From Peribacillus simplex (GTDB lineage Bacteria; Bacillota; Bacilli; Bacillales; DSM-1321): a stretch of 64,000 nucleotides of DNA. Made by a program: the position numbers and the translations under genes. The stretch is from contig NZ_LNNH01000010.1 in assembly GCF_001542915.1 (NCBI RefSeq), forward strand, positions 39,740-103,739, given 5' to 3'. Under the pieces are notes generated by a model. The model saw nothing but the letters and a program-made list of their open reading frames with translations. It was not told where the DNA came from and did no database searches. Below are positions 4,530 to 38,625 of the stretch, in pieces (position 1 is the stretch's first letter; each line of letters begins with the position of its first letter).

Positions 4530-6449
4530 CTAGTTGCTGCGTACTTTTATTTGTTGGAGCAGTTTGTTGATGAATGCATCTATTGAACTTGATTCATAAT
4601 TTTGCTCGCCGTATTTCCGGACGTTGACTTGATTTTCCTGCTCTTCTTTATCGCCAAGGACAAGCATATATGGAATTTTCCCCATCTGGGCTTCCCTGAT
4701 TTTATATCCCAGCTTTTCGTTTCGTTCGTCTGTTGTCACTCTTATGCCGAGTCTTTTGAGCTGTTTTTGGAGTTTATGGCAAAATGGAATATGAACATGC
4801 GAGACAGGGATGAGTTGAACCTGTACCGGGGCAAGCCATACCGGGAAAGCCCCGGCAAAATGCTCAATCAGGATACCAAAAAAACGATCAATCGAGCCAT
4901 AAATCGCACGATGGATGACGACCGGGCGGACTTTTTCATTTTCTTCATCGATGTAAGTCAAATCGAATTTTTCCGGCATTTGAAAATCAAGTTGAATGGT
5001 TGCACATTGATGGCTCCGTTTTAATGCATCCTTAATATGAAAATCAATTTTCGGCCCGTAAAATGCTCCGTCGCCTTCATTTAATTGATAAGGTATGCCG
5101 ATATCGGCAAGCACATTTTTCAAGGCTGCTTCAGAGGCATCCCAAAGGGAGTCATCTCCCAATGAATCCTCTGGTCGAGTCGAGAGCTCCACGGAATATT
5201 CGAATCCAAATGTACGATACACTTCGTCAATCAGTTGAAACACCTGCTTGATCTCCCCCTCGATTTGATCCTGCCGGACGAATAGGTGAGCATCATCCTG
5301 GCAAAATGTCCGGACCCGAAGCATTCCGTTCAATGCTCCACTATATTCATGGCGATGGACTTGACCGAACTCGGCCATCCTGATGGGTAAGTCCCTGTAG
5401 GAATAGCGGTTATTTTTGAAGATAAGCATATGACCCGGGCAATTCATCGGCTTCATCGCGAATTTTGTCTCATCGACCTCAGTAAAGTACATATTTTCAT
5501 GATAGTGATCCCAGTGGCCCGATCTTTCCCATAACCGCTGATTCATCATGAACGGCGTGCGAACCTCGTCATAATCAGCATCGCCCTGGAGCTCACGCGA
5601 GAACTTCTCCAACTCATTCCTGATGATTTGTCCTTTCGGTAAATAAAACGGCATTCCAGGGGCTTCCTCGGAAAACATGAATAGTTCGAGCTGCTTCCCT
5701 AATTTCCGGTGATCGTGCTTGGCTGCTTCTTCCATAAAATCCAAGTGATCTTGTAAATCTTTTTTCCTTCCGAAGGCGACCCCATATACCCGTTGAAGAA
5801 CTTCATTTCGTTTGTCTCCCCGCCAATAGGCACCTGAAACACGTGTCAACTTGAATGCTTTTACCAAAGATGTCGAGGGAAGATGCGGTCCGCGGCAAAG
5901 GTCAATAAACTCCCCTTGTTGATAAAGCGTTAGTTTTTCACCGTTCGGGATGTTCCTCGCAATATCCAGCTTGAATGACTCTCCTTGACTTTCGAATAGC
6001 TTCACCGCTTCTTCATAAGAAACCTCCCTCCTTTTTATTTCCAGATTTTCGTTTATGATTTTTTCCATCTCTTTTTCAATGGCTTGCAGACTCTCTGCGC
6101 TCAAAGGATGATCGAGCTTAAAATCATAGTAAAACCCATCCTCGATGACCTTACCCAAGCCCAGTTTCGCCGTGCCATGAAGTCTCTTCACCGCTTGGGC
6201 CAAAATATGCGCCGAAGTGTGCCGCAACACGTGCAGTCCTTCCTCCGAATCAAGTGTTAAAATCGAGAGTTCAGCATCTTCATTCAATTGGAAATGTAGA
6301 TCGACCAGTTGCTTATCGAGCTTTCCTGCAACTGCCTTTTTCCTTAAGCTTGAGCTGATGGAGCCTGCCACGCTTCCCACTGTCGCACCCATCGGATATT
6401 CCTTCTGCTTCCCATCCGGGAATCGGATTTTGATCATTTTTTCATCCAT
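4530..6449 (-). CDS. thrZ: Threonyl-tRNA synthetase, ThrZ type
   Basis: A 639-aa class II aminoacyl-tRNA synthetase that charges tRNA-Thr. Order: TGS domain (about 1-65), editing domain with the HTSAH motif (near residue 77) and CRGPH (near 185), catalytic core with motif 2 (RMAEFGQVHRHE) and zinc/active-site motifs (MNCPGH, CQDDAH, VVIHRA), then the anticodon-binding domain (from about 540). By memory of both Bacillus subtilis enzymes, the sequence resembles the inducible ThrZ more than ThrS, for example in MFSEEAPGMPFYLPKGQ. The start ATG has AAGGGGTG 8 nt upstream. Expression should be set by the two upstream T-box leaders. A second, constitutive thrS may exist elsewhere in the genome. Confidence 0.95.
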   Translation of the reverse strand: MDEKMIKIRFPDGKQKEYPMGATVGSVAGSISSSLRKKAVAGKLDKQLVDLHFQLNEDAELSILTLDSEEGLHVLRHTSAHILAQAVKRLHGTAKLGLGKVIEDGFYYDFKLDHPLSAESLQAIEKEMEKIINENLEIKRREVSYEEAVKLFESQGESFKLDIARNIPNGEKLTLYQQGEFIDLCRGPHLPSTSLVKAFKLTRVSGAYWRGDKRNEVLQRVYGVAFGRKKDLQDHLDFMEEAAKHDHRKLGKQLELFMFSEEAPGMPFYLPKGQIIRNELEKFSRELQGDADYDEVRTPFMMNQRLWERSGHWDHYHENMYFTEVDETKFAMKPMNCPGHMLIFKNNRYSYRDLPIRMAEFGQVHRHEYSGALNGMLRVRTFCQDDAHLFVRQDQIEGEIKQVFQLIDEVYRTFGFEYSVELSTRPEDSLGDDSLWDASEAALKNVLADIGIPYQLNEGDGAFYGPKIDFHIKDALKRSHQCATIQLDFQMPEKFDLTYIDEENEKVRPVVIHRAIYGSIDRFFGILIEHFAGAFPVWLAPVQVQLIPVSHVHIPFCHKLQKQLKRLGIRVTTDERNEKLGYKIREAQMGKIPYMLVLGDKEEQENQVNVRKYGEQNYESSSIDAFINKLLQQIKVRSN

Positions 6450-6471: not shown

Positions 6472-6712
6472 AATAAAAAAAACGCACTCATCCCTAAGCA
6501 AGGGACGAGTGCGTTTACTCGTGGTTCCACCCAATTTCCCATAAGCAAGAAAACACTCATGGCTCTGGAGCTTGTAACGCAGCTTAGACGATATCAGCTA
6601 CTAAAAGTTCACTGATATAGCTCAAAGGCGGTAAATCATTTTCCTAAGCCAGGAAGTTCGCAGCTGCCCTTCCCTCTCTGAAAACCGTAAAAATGATTAT
6701 TGTCCTTTTCAT
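6472..6712 (-). promoter_or_regulatory. T-box leader 2 (gene-proximal), Thr specifier
   Basis: On the minus strand this has the T-box layout: apical Stem I motifs AGAGAGGGAAGG and GCTGCGAA, a specifier codon ACC (complement of 6630-6632) followed by G-CC-TTTGAG, the T-box sequence GGGTGGAACCACG (6520-6532), and a terminator with GCACTCGTCCCT/AGGGATGAGTGC arms before a run of T (6472-6511). Uncharged tRNA-Thr should favour the antiterminator and allow thrZ transcription. Confidence 0.9.
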
Positions 6713-6732
6713 CGCAATGGTTTTATAAACAA

Positions 6733-6960
6733 AAAAACGCACTCATCCCTAAGCAAGGGACGAGTGCGTTACCCGTGATTCCACCCAATTTCCCATAAGT
6801 ATCATCACTTATGGCTCTGGAGCTTGTAACGCAGCTTAGACGATATCGGTTACTCTCGTTCACCAATAAAAGCTCAAAGGCGGTAAATCATTTTCCTAAG
6901 CCAGGAAGTTCGCAGCTATCCTTCCCTCTCTTAAGACCGTAAAAATGATTGTTGTCCTCA
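6733..6960 (-). promoter_or_regulatory. T-box leader 1 (promoter-proximal), Thr specifier
   Basis: A second complete T-box copy in tandem with leader 2. It has the same Stem I apical motifs, specifier ACC (complement of 6882-6884), T-box element GGGTGGAATCACG (6774-6786, one change from the usual ACC) and its own terminator followed by seven T residues (6732-6770). The two leaders are highly similar over Stem I but differ in the Stem II/III region. Transcription must escape both terminators to reach thrZ. Confidence 0.9.
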
Positions 6961-7126
6961 TCATGGCTTATGCTATTGCAAATCGATTTTTATATTGTTA
7001 TACATATTACAACCAATCCCTGAAAGTTACAACATTTTATTCCAAAAAATATTACTTTTACCAAATGAATAATCCCTATCCTAGCACTCTACCATTTGGT
7101 ATAATTAGTAAAAAAAGGAGGGTCCC

Positions 7127-36422: not shown

Positions 36423-36851
36423 TCATACGGATTTTTCCGTAGGTTTTTCTGAATTTATTCTATATAAGCTTTGCACTTTTTCGGCTACTTCTTTTGGACG
36501 TACATCCAACGTTGAAAGGTCTTCTAGTTTCACCCACAACGGCTGATAGGTTCCTCTTACTCCGTTTTCCTCCGTGTACTCTTCTCCCTTTCCCTTTCCG
36601 AGAACACCTTCCTCGATATCGCCTAAGAAAAAGAAGTGTACCCCATTATAATGAATGACTGACAGGCATTCTTTAACCTTCACCACCAGCCCCAATTCCT
36701 CAAAGGCTTCCCTTCTTGCCGCTGTTTGAGGCGTTTCATCTTTCTCGATGCCTCCCCCAGGGAAGACATAATAAGCAGTCCCTTCCCTATATCTTCTAAT
36801 CAAGGCTACGCTATCTTTTTCCATTAAGATCATTGACCCTCTATTCCTCAC
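36423..36851 (-). CDS. NUDIX hydrolase
   Basis: A 142-aa NUDIX protein with the box GGGIEKDETPQTAARREAFEELG (seen in part here as GxE...REAxEELG), near residue 35. NUDIX enzymes cleave nucleoside diphosphates linked to other groups. I begin at the internal GTG, because GGGAGGG lies 5 nt upstream and the resulting start (MRNRGSMILME) is the usual one; the 56 codons before it are not typical. It is divergent from a riboswitch-controlled gene. Substrate unknown. Confidence 0.85.
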   Translation of the reverse strand: MRNRGSMILMEKDSVALIRRYREGTAYYVFPGGGIEKDETPQTAARREAFEELGLVVKVKECLSVIHYNGVHFFFLGDIEEGVLGKGKGEEYTEENGVRGTYQPLWVKLEDLSTLDVRPKEVAEKVQSLYRINSEKPTEKSV

Positions 36852-37074
36852 ACTATCCCTCCCATTAACATAAAAGAGTACACCCATTATATTTGTCTCA
36901 CTCTTCTCACCATTACAAAAATCCTTTTTCCACTCAATGAATTTGTGAGTTTTCGAAAAAATCATACACAAAACACGAACATTATGCAACACTATTTTAT
37001 GAACGTTCACTTTTTTCATTGCTATTCGATCATTCCTTTGTTATATTAGCAAAGTGATAATCGTACCTATCATT

Positions 37075-37146
37075 ACTCGTATAGGCTTGGAAATATGGTC
37101 CGAGCGTTTCTACCTGGTTCCCATCTGAAAGAACTGGTCTACGAGT
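37075..37146 (+). promoter_or_regulatory. Purine riboswitch aptamer (guanine/hypoxanthine type)
   Basis: P1 arms ACTCGTA (37075-37081) and TACGAGT (37140-37146), P2/P3 hairpins and the core J2/3 motif TTTCTACC (37107-37114) match the purine aptamer. The base that sets specificity, before the 3' P1 strand, is C (37139), which predicts guanine or hypoxanthine rather than adenine. It lies 180 nt before a nucleosidase-like gene, with a terminator between. Confidence 0.85.
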
Positions 37147-37236
37147 TGAAGCATCCTCCCGCTCTTCTTATTTGAGCAGGTCATGATTTAGCATGTTCTT
37201 CGCTTTTGCTTTATTATCCGATGCTTTGACGCTCGC

Positions 37237-37279
37237 AGCACCAGGAGACAGGATCATTCTGCCGTTCTGGAGCTTTTTT
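37237..37279 (+). terminator. Riboswitch expression-platform terminator
   Basis: AGCACCAG (37237-37244) pairs with CTGGAGCT (37267-37274, one A-A mismatch), followed by six T residues. Located between the aptamer and the gene, it should form when purine is bound. Confidence 0.6.
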
Positions 37280-37327
37280 CTTTCAGGCCAAACCTGCGGG
37301 TGCATCCAATATAAAGGAGAGATTACG

Positions 37328-38209
37328 ATGAGAAACATCCTGTTGAAAAAGTATTCGATAGTAGGCATCATTACATTACTGCTTGTGTCGATGGTTGCAG
37401 CTTGCAGTTCGACACTAAAAAATGAAACGGAAGAAAAAAAGGCGCAAAGGCCGATCATGGTTCAAGGTCCGATGCCGATCGAGGCTGAACATTTCGCGAA
37501 AAAATTGGAAGATGTGAAAGAAGAAAAATCAGGGGATTTCGTATTTTATAAGGGAACTTTAGATGGTTACCCTGTCATCGTTGCGAAAACGGGTAAAGGG
37601 ATGGAAAATACCGCTGCCGCTACTGCCGTGGCGATTGAAAAGTATAACCCCATCGCCATCATCAATCAAGGAACATCCGGAGGACATGACCCAAGCTTAA
37701 ACGTTTTTGATATTGTTTTGGGCCAAAAAACGGTAAACCTAGGTTCATTAAAAACGGCAGATAAAGCTGAAAACCAGGGCATCGATCCAACTATATGGAA
37801 GCCGATGGATCTAATGGCGTCTGAAGGAAGTGCAGGGGAAGATCCTAATGCTGAAAAACCACGCTTCTACGAAGGTGATAAGGATTTGCTTGCGGCCGCA
37901 CATGCCGTTAAGGAAACATACACAAAAGGGAAGGTTGTCGATGGCACGATCGGTTCAGCGGACGTTTGGAATAATGAAGTCGATCGGATCAAATGGTTCC
38001 ATACGAAATATGGTACATCCGTAGAAGAGATGGAAGGAGCCGCCGCTGCCCAAATCGCCAAAGCGTACGATGTGCCCTTCCTAGGGATACGGGTGCTATC
38101 CAATAATAAAGTGAATGGCGGTACATATAACCCGAATACAGCAACCGCCAATCAAGGCTATGTGTATGAAGTGGTCAAACAATATATCTCCACGGTTTCA
38201 AGCAAATAA
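37328..38209 (+). CDS. Lipoprotein nucleosidase/phosphorylase (PNP_UDP_1-like)
   Basis: A 293-aa exported lipoprotein. A signal sequence ends in VAACSS (Cys near residue 25). The rest resembles the 5'-methylthioadenosine/nucleoside phosphorylase family: AKTGKGMENTAAATAV, INQGTSGGHDPSLNVFDIVLG and the catalytic-type VEEMEGAAAAQIA with GIRVLSNN. It would split nucleosides outside the cell, probably to supply purine bases. The start ATG follows GGAGAGATTACG; the longer frame runs through the riboswitch terminator. Control by the guanine riboswitch fits such a scavenging role. Confidence 0.85.
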   Translation: MRNILLKKYSIVGIITLLLVSMVAACSSTLKNETEEKKAQRPIMVQGPMPIEAEHFAKKLEDVKEEKSGDFVFYKGTLDGYPVIVAKTGKGMENTAAATAVAIEKYNPIAIINQGTSGGHDPSLNVFDIVLGQKTVNLGSLKTADKAENQGIDPTIWKPMDLMASEGSAGEDPNAEKPRFYEGDKDLLAAAHAVKETYTKGKVVDGTIGSADVWNNEVDRIKWFHTKYGTSVEEMEGAAAAQIAKAYDVPFLGIRVLSNNKVNGGTYNPNTATANQGYVYEVVKQYISTVSSK

Positions 38210-38221
38210 GCTCTATATGCA

Positions 38222-38257
38222 AAAGAGGCGCAGACCACTATCTAGCGCCTCTTTCCT
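38222..38257 (+). terminator. Terminator after the lipoprotein nucleosidase
   Basis: Arms AAAGAGGCGC and GCGCCTCTTT around a 12-nt loop, no gene between. Confidence 0.8.
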
Positions 38258-38268
38258 TGTGGAAAGCC

Positions 38269-38625
38269 TCATTCCTCGCCGCACAATATCAAGCTGAGGC
38301 TGTTCAATGTGTGCAGTCTGGCGGTGAAAATGAATAAATCATCGTAGTTATTTCCTACGTATTCTTCGATGATGATATAGCCTTTTCTGAATCTATCAAC
38401 CAATAAATGCGTGTAGTTTTCATCCCAGGTGAACCGGTTGATCCTTTTCAATTCATCGGCCCATACTTGAAACTTAAACTCCTCGACAAGCAGCTTCAAT
38501 TGATACAATTTATCTATATGTAAACAAAAGATATTGTTCTTATCTTGATGGTGTTTTTGGACGAATTCAATAAAACCCTTGATTTGATCAGCCAGCATAT
38601 TCGCTATTTGCATCTCGAAGTTCAT
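38269..38625 (-). CDS. Conserved-looking small cytoplasmic protein of unknown function
   Basis: A 118-aa protein rich in aromatic and charged residues with no signal or membrane helix. I do not recognise a domain. GGAGATGGAGAG precedes the ATG. Convergent with the nucleosidase gene; transcribed alone. Confidence 0.6.
   Translation of the reverse strand: MNFEMQIANMLADQIKGFIEFVQKHHQDKNNIFCLHIDKLYQLKLLVEEFKFQVWADELKRINRFTWDENYTHLLVDRFRKGYIIIEEYVGNNYDDLFIFTARLHTLNSLSLILCGEE

Follow-up and report, generated by a model that had tools for sequence, protein, structure and literature searches.

The guanine-I riboswitch of xpt-pbuX in Bacillus subtilis combines a three-way junction, L2-L3 bases, the core nucleotides U22, U47, U51 and C74, and an antiterminator-terminator platform of the OFF type. 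In this class of riboswitches, the C at position 74 is the base that pairs with guanine. The leader that we analyzed in a 64-kb window (the whole stretch of DNA under study) shares the junction, the loop bases and the core nucleotides, as well as an expression platform that is predicted from its folds to be of the same type. Unlike xpt-pbuX, it would control the gene of a predicted exported nucleosidase, and the copy in the window carries a U at position 73. A purine-class aptamer upstream of a nucleoside-splitting enzyme has also been described for 2'-dG-III RNAs, but these are described in PMC9295807 as having modified joining regions, a C at position 73 and a platform of the ON type, whereas we find a canonical core and a predicted OFF platform.

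Several described enzymes are related to the encoded protein. The closest solved fold is that of the periplasmic enzyme of Aeromonas hydrophila (PDB 5b7g, 5b7n, 5b7p and 5b7q; Xu 2017), which is likewise exported and has Asn at the site of the catalytic Asp197 of methylthioadenosine/S-adenosylhomocysteine (MTA/SAH) nucleosidase (MTAN). However, its published name, as worded in the entry titles, asserts an adenine-nucleoside substrate, and the gammaproteobacterial loci possess no riboswitch. The cytosolic MtnN presents the same fold with the Glu12 and Met173-Glu174 equivalents, but it has Asp197 and no signal sequence, whereas the window protein has Asn259 and a signal sequence. Finally, the futalosine hydrolase MqnB and the phosphorylase PunA (PNP I) have Asn at the base-contact site and are enzymes of 6-oxopurine substrates, as we propose here. 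They differ from the window protein in that neither of them is exported; MqnB serves menaquinone synthesis, with futalosine as its substrate, and PunA is a phosphorylase of the cytosol. The features of the locus are as follows:

37019..37047, + strand: candidate promoter, TTGCTA, 17 nt, TATATT, with TG before the second hexamer (consensus scan, 9/12)
37057..37161, + strand: purine (guanine-type) riboswitch aptamer (RF00167, 65.1 bits, E 4.1e-9)
37074-37081/37140-37147, + strand: aptamer P1 (CM alignment)
37085-37091/37099-37105, + strand: aptamer P2, with L2 at 37092-37098 (CM alignment)
37106-37113, + strand: aptamer J2/3 (CM alignment)
37114-37120/37131-37137, + strand: aptamer P3, with L3 at 37121-37130, 10 nt (CM alignment)
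37138-37139, + strand: aptamer J3/1, bases U and C (CM alignment)
37138, + strand: position 73, U here and A in each of the 67 orthologue aptamers (orthologue alignment)
37139, + strand: specificity position 74, C here and in all 68 orthologue aptamers including that of the window (CM alignment)
37134..37155, + strand: antiterminator 5' strand, formed by the P3 and P1 3' strands with C74 and the next bases (fold; comparison of 68 leaders)
37220..37244, + strand: antiterminator 3' strand, overlapping the terminator 5' arm (fold; comparison of 68 leaders)
37238..37279, + strand: intrinsic terminator, GCACCAG...CTGGAGC followed by six T (fold, -12.9 kcal/mol, z -1.83)
37328..38209, + strand: gene of a predicted exported lipoprotein nucleosidase of the PNP_UDP_1 fold, 293 aa (translation, PF01048)

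We searched the entire window for Rfam families and the match at 37057-37161 (+) was the sole purine aptamer. Its score compares with a gathering score of 37, its E-value refers to the 64 kb, and the match covers the model from 1 to 102 in full (cmscan). U22, U47 and U51 are all present at 37082, 37107 and 37111 in the CM alignment, and positions 22, 47, 51 and 74 show no variation across 68 aptamers (67 orthologues and the window). A guanine-type riboswitch had been proposed here in the original prediction, which hinged in part on whether C37139 lies at the specificity position of the folded structure. The CM alignment indeed places C37139 at position 74 and, with the RF00167 score of 65.1 bits, bears this proposal out. 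An adenine switch was ruled out, position 74 being C. The CM score and the core bases suggest that this is a guanine-I-type aptamer whose predicted ligand is guanine. The candidate promoter ends just 5' of the aptamer (the scan returned 7 such sites, relative to 3.0 in shuffled sequences).

The aptamers of this nucleosidase gene (e.g., those of loci L011 and L024) constitute a recognizable subgroup. Indeed, L3 has 7 nt in the Rfam consensus of guanine-I, whereas it has 9 nt in 60 of the 68 aptamers (10 nt in 4, including the window, 8 nt in 3 and 7 nt in 1), and position 48 is C in 26 of them and U in 42. Elsewhere in the window, tandem T-box leaders are found at 6498-6721 and 6753-6973 on the - strand (113.8 and 100.6 bits), upstream of an ORF at 4530-6449 (-) that resembles threonyl-tRNA synthetase by eye. 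An arrangement of this kind is known upstream of thrZ in Bacillus.

We further analyzed the region between the aptamer and the gene. The segment 37130-37246 folds into a long antiterminator (-36.9 kcal/mol, z -3.29). In a scripted analysis of the 68 leaders (67 orthologues and the window), 60 presented an antiterminator duplex with z < -3, and 60 presented a hairpin followed by a T-run; the script found no terminator in the remaining 8, and four of the 60 terminator hairpins were weak (-6.5, -6.5, -6.5 and -2.4). C74 faces a G of the antiterminator in all 68 leaders. The types of pairs vary while pairing is kept: position 70, for instance, forms U-A in 46 leaders, C-G in 17 and U-G in 5. The minimum-energy fold of the whole window leader, mildly stable relative to shuffled sequences (z -1.48), contains the antiterminator rather than the aptamer, which is what competing folds would give. 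A simple terminator scan found no terminator in the window leader because the stem is mismatched and longer than the limits of the scan. A closed P1 excludes the antiterminator and frees the terminator, and the leader is therefore modeled as an OFF expression platform, a direction of control that we infer from these folds. The ATG at 37193, which would start a longer listed ORF, was rejected as a start codon since it falls within this leader.

The copy in the window presents two changes relative to its counterpart in a strain comparison that rests on one same-species genome (G025, locus L087): U instead of A at 37138 and A instead of T at 37240. These two positions are partners in the antiterminator, where the pair is thus preserved. 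Position 37240 also belongs to the terminator, where A37240 meets A37271, a mismatch peculiar to the window copy. The terminator is predicted at -12.9 kcal/mol (z -1.83) in the window and at -18.3 kcal/mol (z -3.76) in the same-species relative, against -36.9 and -35.2 kcal/mol, respectively, for the antiterminator. In addition, the predicted fold of the window aptamer pairs A52 (37112) with U73, and the fold of the sibling lacks this pair. The window copy departs in this way from the conserved A73 of the guanine-I class, and the membership of the family as a whole is unaffected. The window switch may be drifting towards ON, although the change could equally be tolerated, and A73U may reduce the guanine response of this copy.

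These features lend themselves to two other readings of the RNA. It is conceivable, although we consider it somewhat doubtful, that the window aptamer no longer responds to guanine: A73U would disturb the junction and the weak terminator would leave the gene nearly constitutive, with the antiterminator kept by selection. The restriction of U73 to the window among 68 aptamers, the predicted A52-U73 pair that the sibling lacks and the shift of both energies towards the antiterminator all favor this possibility. On the other hand, the ligand-contact bases are all kept, the CM score still reaches 65.1 bits and the comparison involves a single same-species genome, while the reading of the family is untouched. 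We find it very improbable that the aptamer is an ON switch for a guanine nucleoside, in the manner of the 2'-dG-III variants that precede purine nucleoside hydrolase genes. This alternative has a published precedent, but passages of PMC9295807 describe those RNAs as off-consensus in all three joining regions, with C73 and an ON platform; in contrast, U22, U47, U51 and C74 are constant here and the folds point to an OFF platform. We rejected the 2'-dG-III class on the basis of the canonical core and the OFF platform, and retain a guanine-I switch for the family. Whatever its effect, A73U together with its compensating change constitutes a natural experiment on junction tolerance in a guanine riboswitch.

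The gene downstream of the leader starts at ATG 37328, preceded by AAAGGAG at 37313-37319 (read by eye), and its product matches PF01048 with 137.7 bits relative to a cut-off of 25.1 (5.4e-40). The translation presents a signal sequence and a lipobox V-A-A-C ending at Cys26, which agrees with the exported lipoprotein of the original prediction, export itself being predicted. A lipobox was found in 47 of the 68 Bacillales orthologues; the remaining 21, which lack the lipobox Cys (e.g., L023 and L041), begin with a hydrophobic N-terminus and may be secreted or membrane-anchored otherwise. These properties suggest that the window protein is extracytoplasmic and membrane-anchored. An AlphaFold2 model based on 21 orthologues (pLDDT 86.4, pTM 0.81) ranked 5b7q first when aligned with VIA-align (Z 36.6, rmsd 3.1 over 246 residues, 42% identity). 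Both flanking genes (36423-37019 and 38269-38625) run in the opposite direction; an operon was considered and set aside for this reason, and the nucleosidase gene therefore stands alone. A hairpin is visible by eye 3' of the gene, at approximately 38222-38254.

The active site suggests which nucleosides might be split. Glu52, Met235, Glu236, Ser258, Asn259 and Asn260 are constant in 21 diverse members of the family; Glu52 is the equivalent of the catalytic Glu12 of MTAN, and Met235-Glu236 form the ribose site (equivalent to Met173-Glu174). Asn259 aligns with the catalytic Asp197 of MTAN, and Asn occupies this site in all 76 Bacillales and gammaproteobacterial orthologues that we read. The site is Asp in the MTAN and DeoD of the same genome, in two other MTANs and, in further alignments, in three solved MTANs, and it is Asn in four of four futalosine hydrolases. 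PunA of the same genome, which matches the 'inosine and guanosine-specific' TIGR01700, has Asn in the corresponding motif by eye. MTANs with an Asp-to-Asn mutation are nearly inactive. Work on PNPs indicates that Asn at the base-contact site favors 6-oxopurines, and it is the working residue in PunA. There is very little probability, in our view, that the protein has lost catalysis and kept the fold as a binding protein or adhesin: the loss of the acid Asp of MTAN would fit, but the six constant residues, and the use of Asn by enzymes of the same fold acting on 6-oxopurines, argue for a working enzyme. Among the clostridial relatives, L082 (38% identity) shows no evident signal sequence and carries Asp at this site, whereas L081 has Asn.

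The same residues bear on the name under which such proteins are recorded. Plasmid records call two of the examined orthologues MTA/SAH nucleosidase, and the nearest solved structures (5b7g, 5b7n, 5b7p and 5b7q), which share about 40% identity and likewise have Asn in place of Asp197, bear titles that speak of a periplasmic MTA/SAH nucleosidase and its 'functional analysis'; this counts against a 6-oxopurine reading. We consider it unlikely that the protein is a true MTA/SAH nucleosidase, exported and clearing external methylthioadenosine, under guanine control since it also yields adenine for salvage. Besides those titles, the conserved catalytic Glu and Met-Glu speak for this scenario, as do the periplasmic role of MTA in Aeromonas noted in a passage of a review (PMC6302742) and the score to TIGR01704 (MTA/SAH nucleosidase), although the latter exceeds its cut-off only narrowly (78 versus 73.8) and derives mainly from the first half of the domain. 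On the other side, the score to NF004079 is below its cut-off (97.3 versus 169), and all 76 orthologues have Asn where MTAN has Asp197. For two MTANs, Asp-to-Asn mutants have been crystallized, as their entry titles state, with substrate bound (E. coli Asp197Asn with MTA, 1z5o; Helicobacter Asp198Asn with SAH and MTA, 4oy3 and 4p54) and are therefore taken as poor catalysts. Moreover, Rfam scans of the 79 loci that we collected revealed no SAM or SAH riboswitch, and the regulators are of the purine type in both groups of bacteria.

The genome that contains the window also has separate genes for a cytosolic MTAN (370 bits to TIGR01704), DeoD and PunA. The fold supports the nucleosidase of the original prediction (PF01048), but methylthioadenosine, which it had listed among the substrates to assay, is unlikely as the natural substrate because the catalytic Asp of MTAN is Asn here. 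The database name MTA/SAH nucleosidase is probably wrong for this enzyme, which we would rather describe from its sequence as a putative extracytoplasmic nucleosidase of the guanosine/inosine type under guanine repression.

We then examined how general the association of the aptamer and the gene is. The orthologue search yielded 79 loci (68 Bacillales, 8 gammaproteobacterial and 3 clostridial), and Rfam scans identified the aptamer upstream of the gene in 67 of the 68 Bacillales, in none of the 8 gammaproteobacterial and in none of the 3 clostridial loci. The Bacillales exception (L043) was among 11 loci searched with laxer parameters, which revealed no aptamer there either. Because these 79 loci were chosen by sequence likeness to the query, we also used a separate sample of 199 genomes of the order, which overlaps in part with the 79-locus set. 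The gene was found at E 1e-60 or better in 34 of the 199 genomes (15 of 97 genera). The aptamer was present on the strand of the gene in 32 of the 33 other upstream stretches, and in 33 of 34 when including the window; the exception (L163, in G414) is a divergent gene whose contig extends only some 440 nt upstream. In the family of the window, we identified 22 gene copies in 21 genomes, omitting two matches of 34 and 36% identity, and the aptamer was recognized by pattern in 20 and by Rfam in one more. One genome (G012) has two nucleosidase copies, L106 and L109, of which L109 is without an aptamer.

None of the neighboring genes of the window is found in more than 10 of the 79 loci, and the leader and the gene therefore travel as a unit. 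The closest named orthologues are those of Peribacillus, and a relative about 50% identical is carried by Acinetobacter plasmid records (H4-H8). These results indicate that the pairing of aptamer and nucleosidase is general in Bacillales, as judged from the sequences of the order. In open-access PMC, none of the papers among the matches listed links a guanine riboswitch with a nucleosidase that is exported or resembles MTAN.

Gammaproteobacteria appear to have linked the same gene to purines by other means. No riboswitch reached the Rfam gathering score in 8 of 8 gammaproteobacterial loci. We also searched gammaproteobacterial loci for PurR boxes with a consensus, scoring the best match of each locus (maximum 28) and using a looser motif for the loci after the tenth. 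In 11 of the 14 distinct loci, the best match fell within the interval from -300 to +20 relative to the start, a count that overstates the independent evidence, since these loci are related. L118 was dropped from it as a repeat of L073. Scores ranged from 19 to 26 of 28, with L077 the weakest, and the best match of L083, L121 and L123 was outside this interval. No such placement was observed in the comparison loci (three Bacillales and one clostridial). Six of 10 other box matches examined in one genome (G103) precede genes for CvpA, PurT, PurL, GcvT, Prs and GlyA, which we take to be members of the PurR regulon. The nucleosidase gene is rare in the family of this genome (5 of 149 genomes), and a blastn search with an enterobacterial orthologue matched no E. 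coli genome record. External purine scavenging, the role that the original prediction had suggested, emerges as the best-supported reading from the pairing in 33 of 34 genomes with the gene and from the PurR-like boxes at 11 of these 14 related loci.

The draft genome of 5.1 Mb contains six purine aptamers, five besides that of the window. Four of these precede genes for a phosphoribosyltransferase, a purine permease, AIR carboxylase and a concentrative nucleoside transporter, and the fifth precedes a guaA-like gene by eye. Base uptake, nucleoside uptake, salvage and synthesis would therefore share their ligand with the exported nucleosidase. Overall, we consider it probable that a guanine-I riboswitch represses, by transcription termination, a single gene for a membrane-anchored extracytoplasmic purine nucleosidase. 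The computed basis of this model consists of the aptamer, the specificity base, the competing folds of 68 leaders, the lipobox, the fold, the gene pairing and the Asn at the base-contact site; from it we infer the ligand, the OFF direction, the export, hydrolysis, the 6-oxopurine preference and the salvage route. When internal guanine is low, the P3 and P1 3' strands would pair with the terminator 5' arm, and this antiterminator would block the terminator and allow the gene to be transcribed. The enzyme would then hydrolyze 6-oxopurine nucleosides (guanosine, inosine or their deoxy forms) outside the membrane, and the freed base would enter through purine permeases and be salvaged by phosphoribosyl transfer. 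A build-up of guanine would keep P1 closed, free the terminator and turn the gene off.

Relative to the original prediction, our analysis extends the pairing to Bacillales in general, spells out a predicted OFF platform and adds the likely misnaming of the enzyme, the gammaproteobacterial parallel and a caution on the window copy. More broadly, these proteins might constitute a class of exported hydrolytic 6-oxopurine nucleosidases of the NP-I type, marked by Asn and misnamed MTA/SAH nucleosidases, for which two phyla independently gained purine repression (through a guanine riboswitch in the Bacillales and through PurR in the Gammaproteobacteria), a proposal that we regard as evenly balanced. 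If it is true, the name of a gene of dozens of Bacillales genomes would be corrected, and Asn at the Asp197 site would represent a simple mark separating adenine- from 6-oxopurine-nucleoside hydrolases within the fold. The lowering of dietary purines is a further reason for interest in enzymes that split guanosine and inosine. For soil bacilli themselves, purine salvage would begin outside the cell with this enzyme, and the guanine riboswitch regulon would gain an extracellular step.
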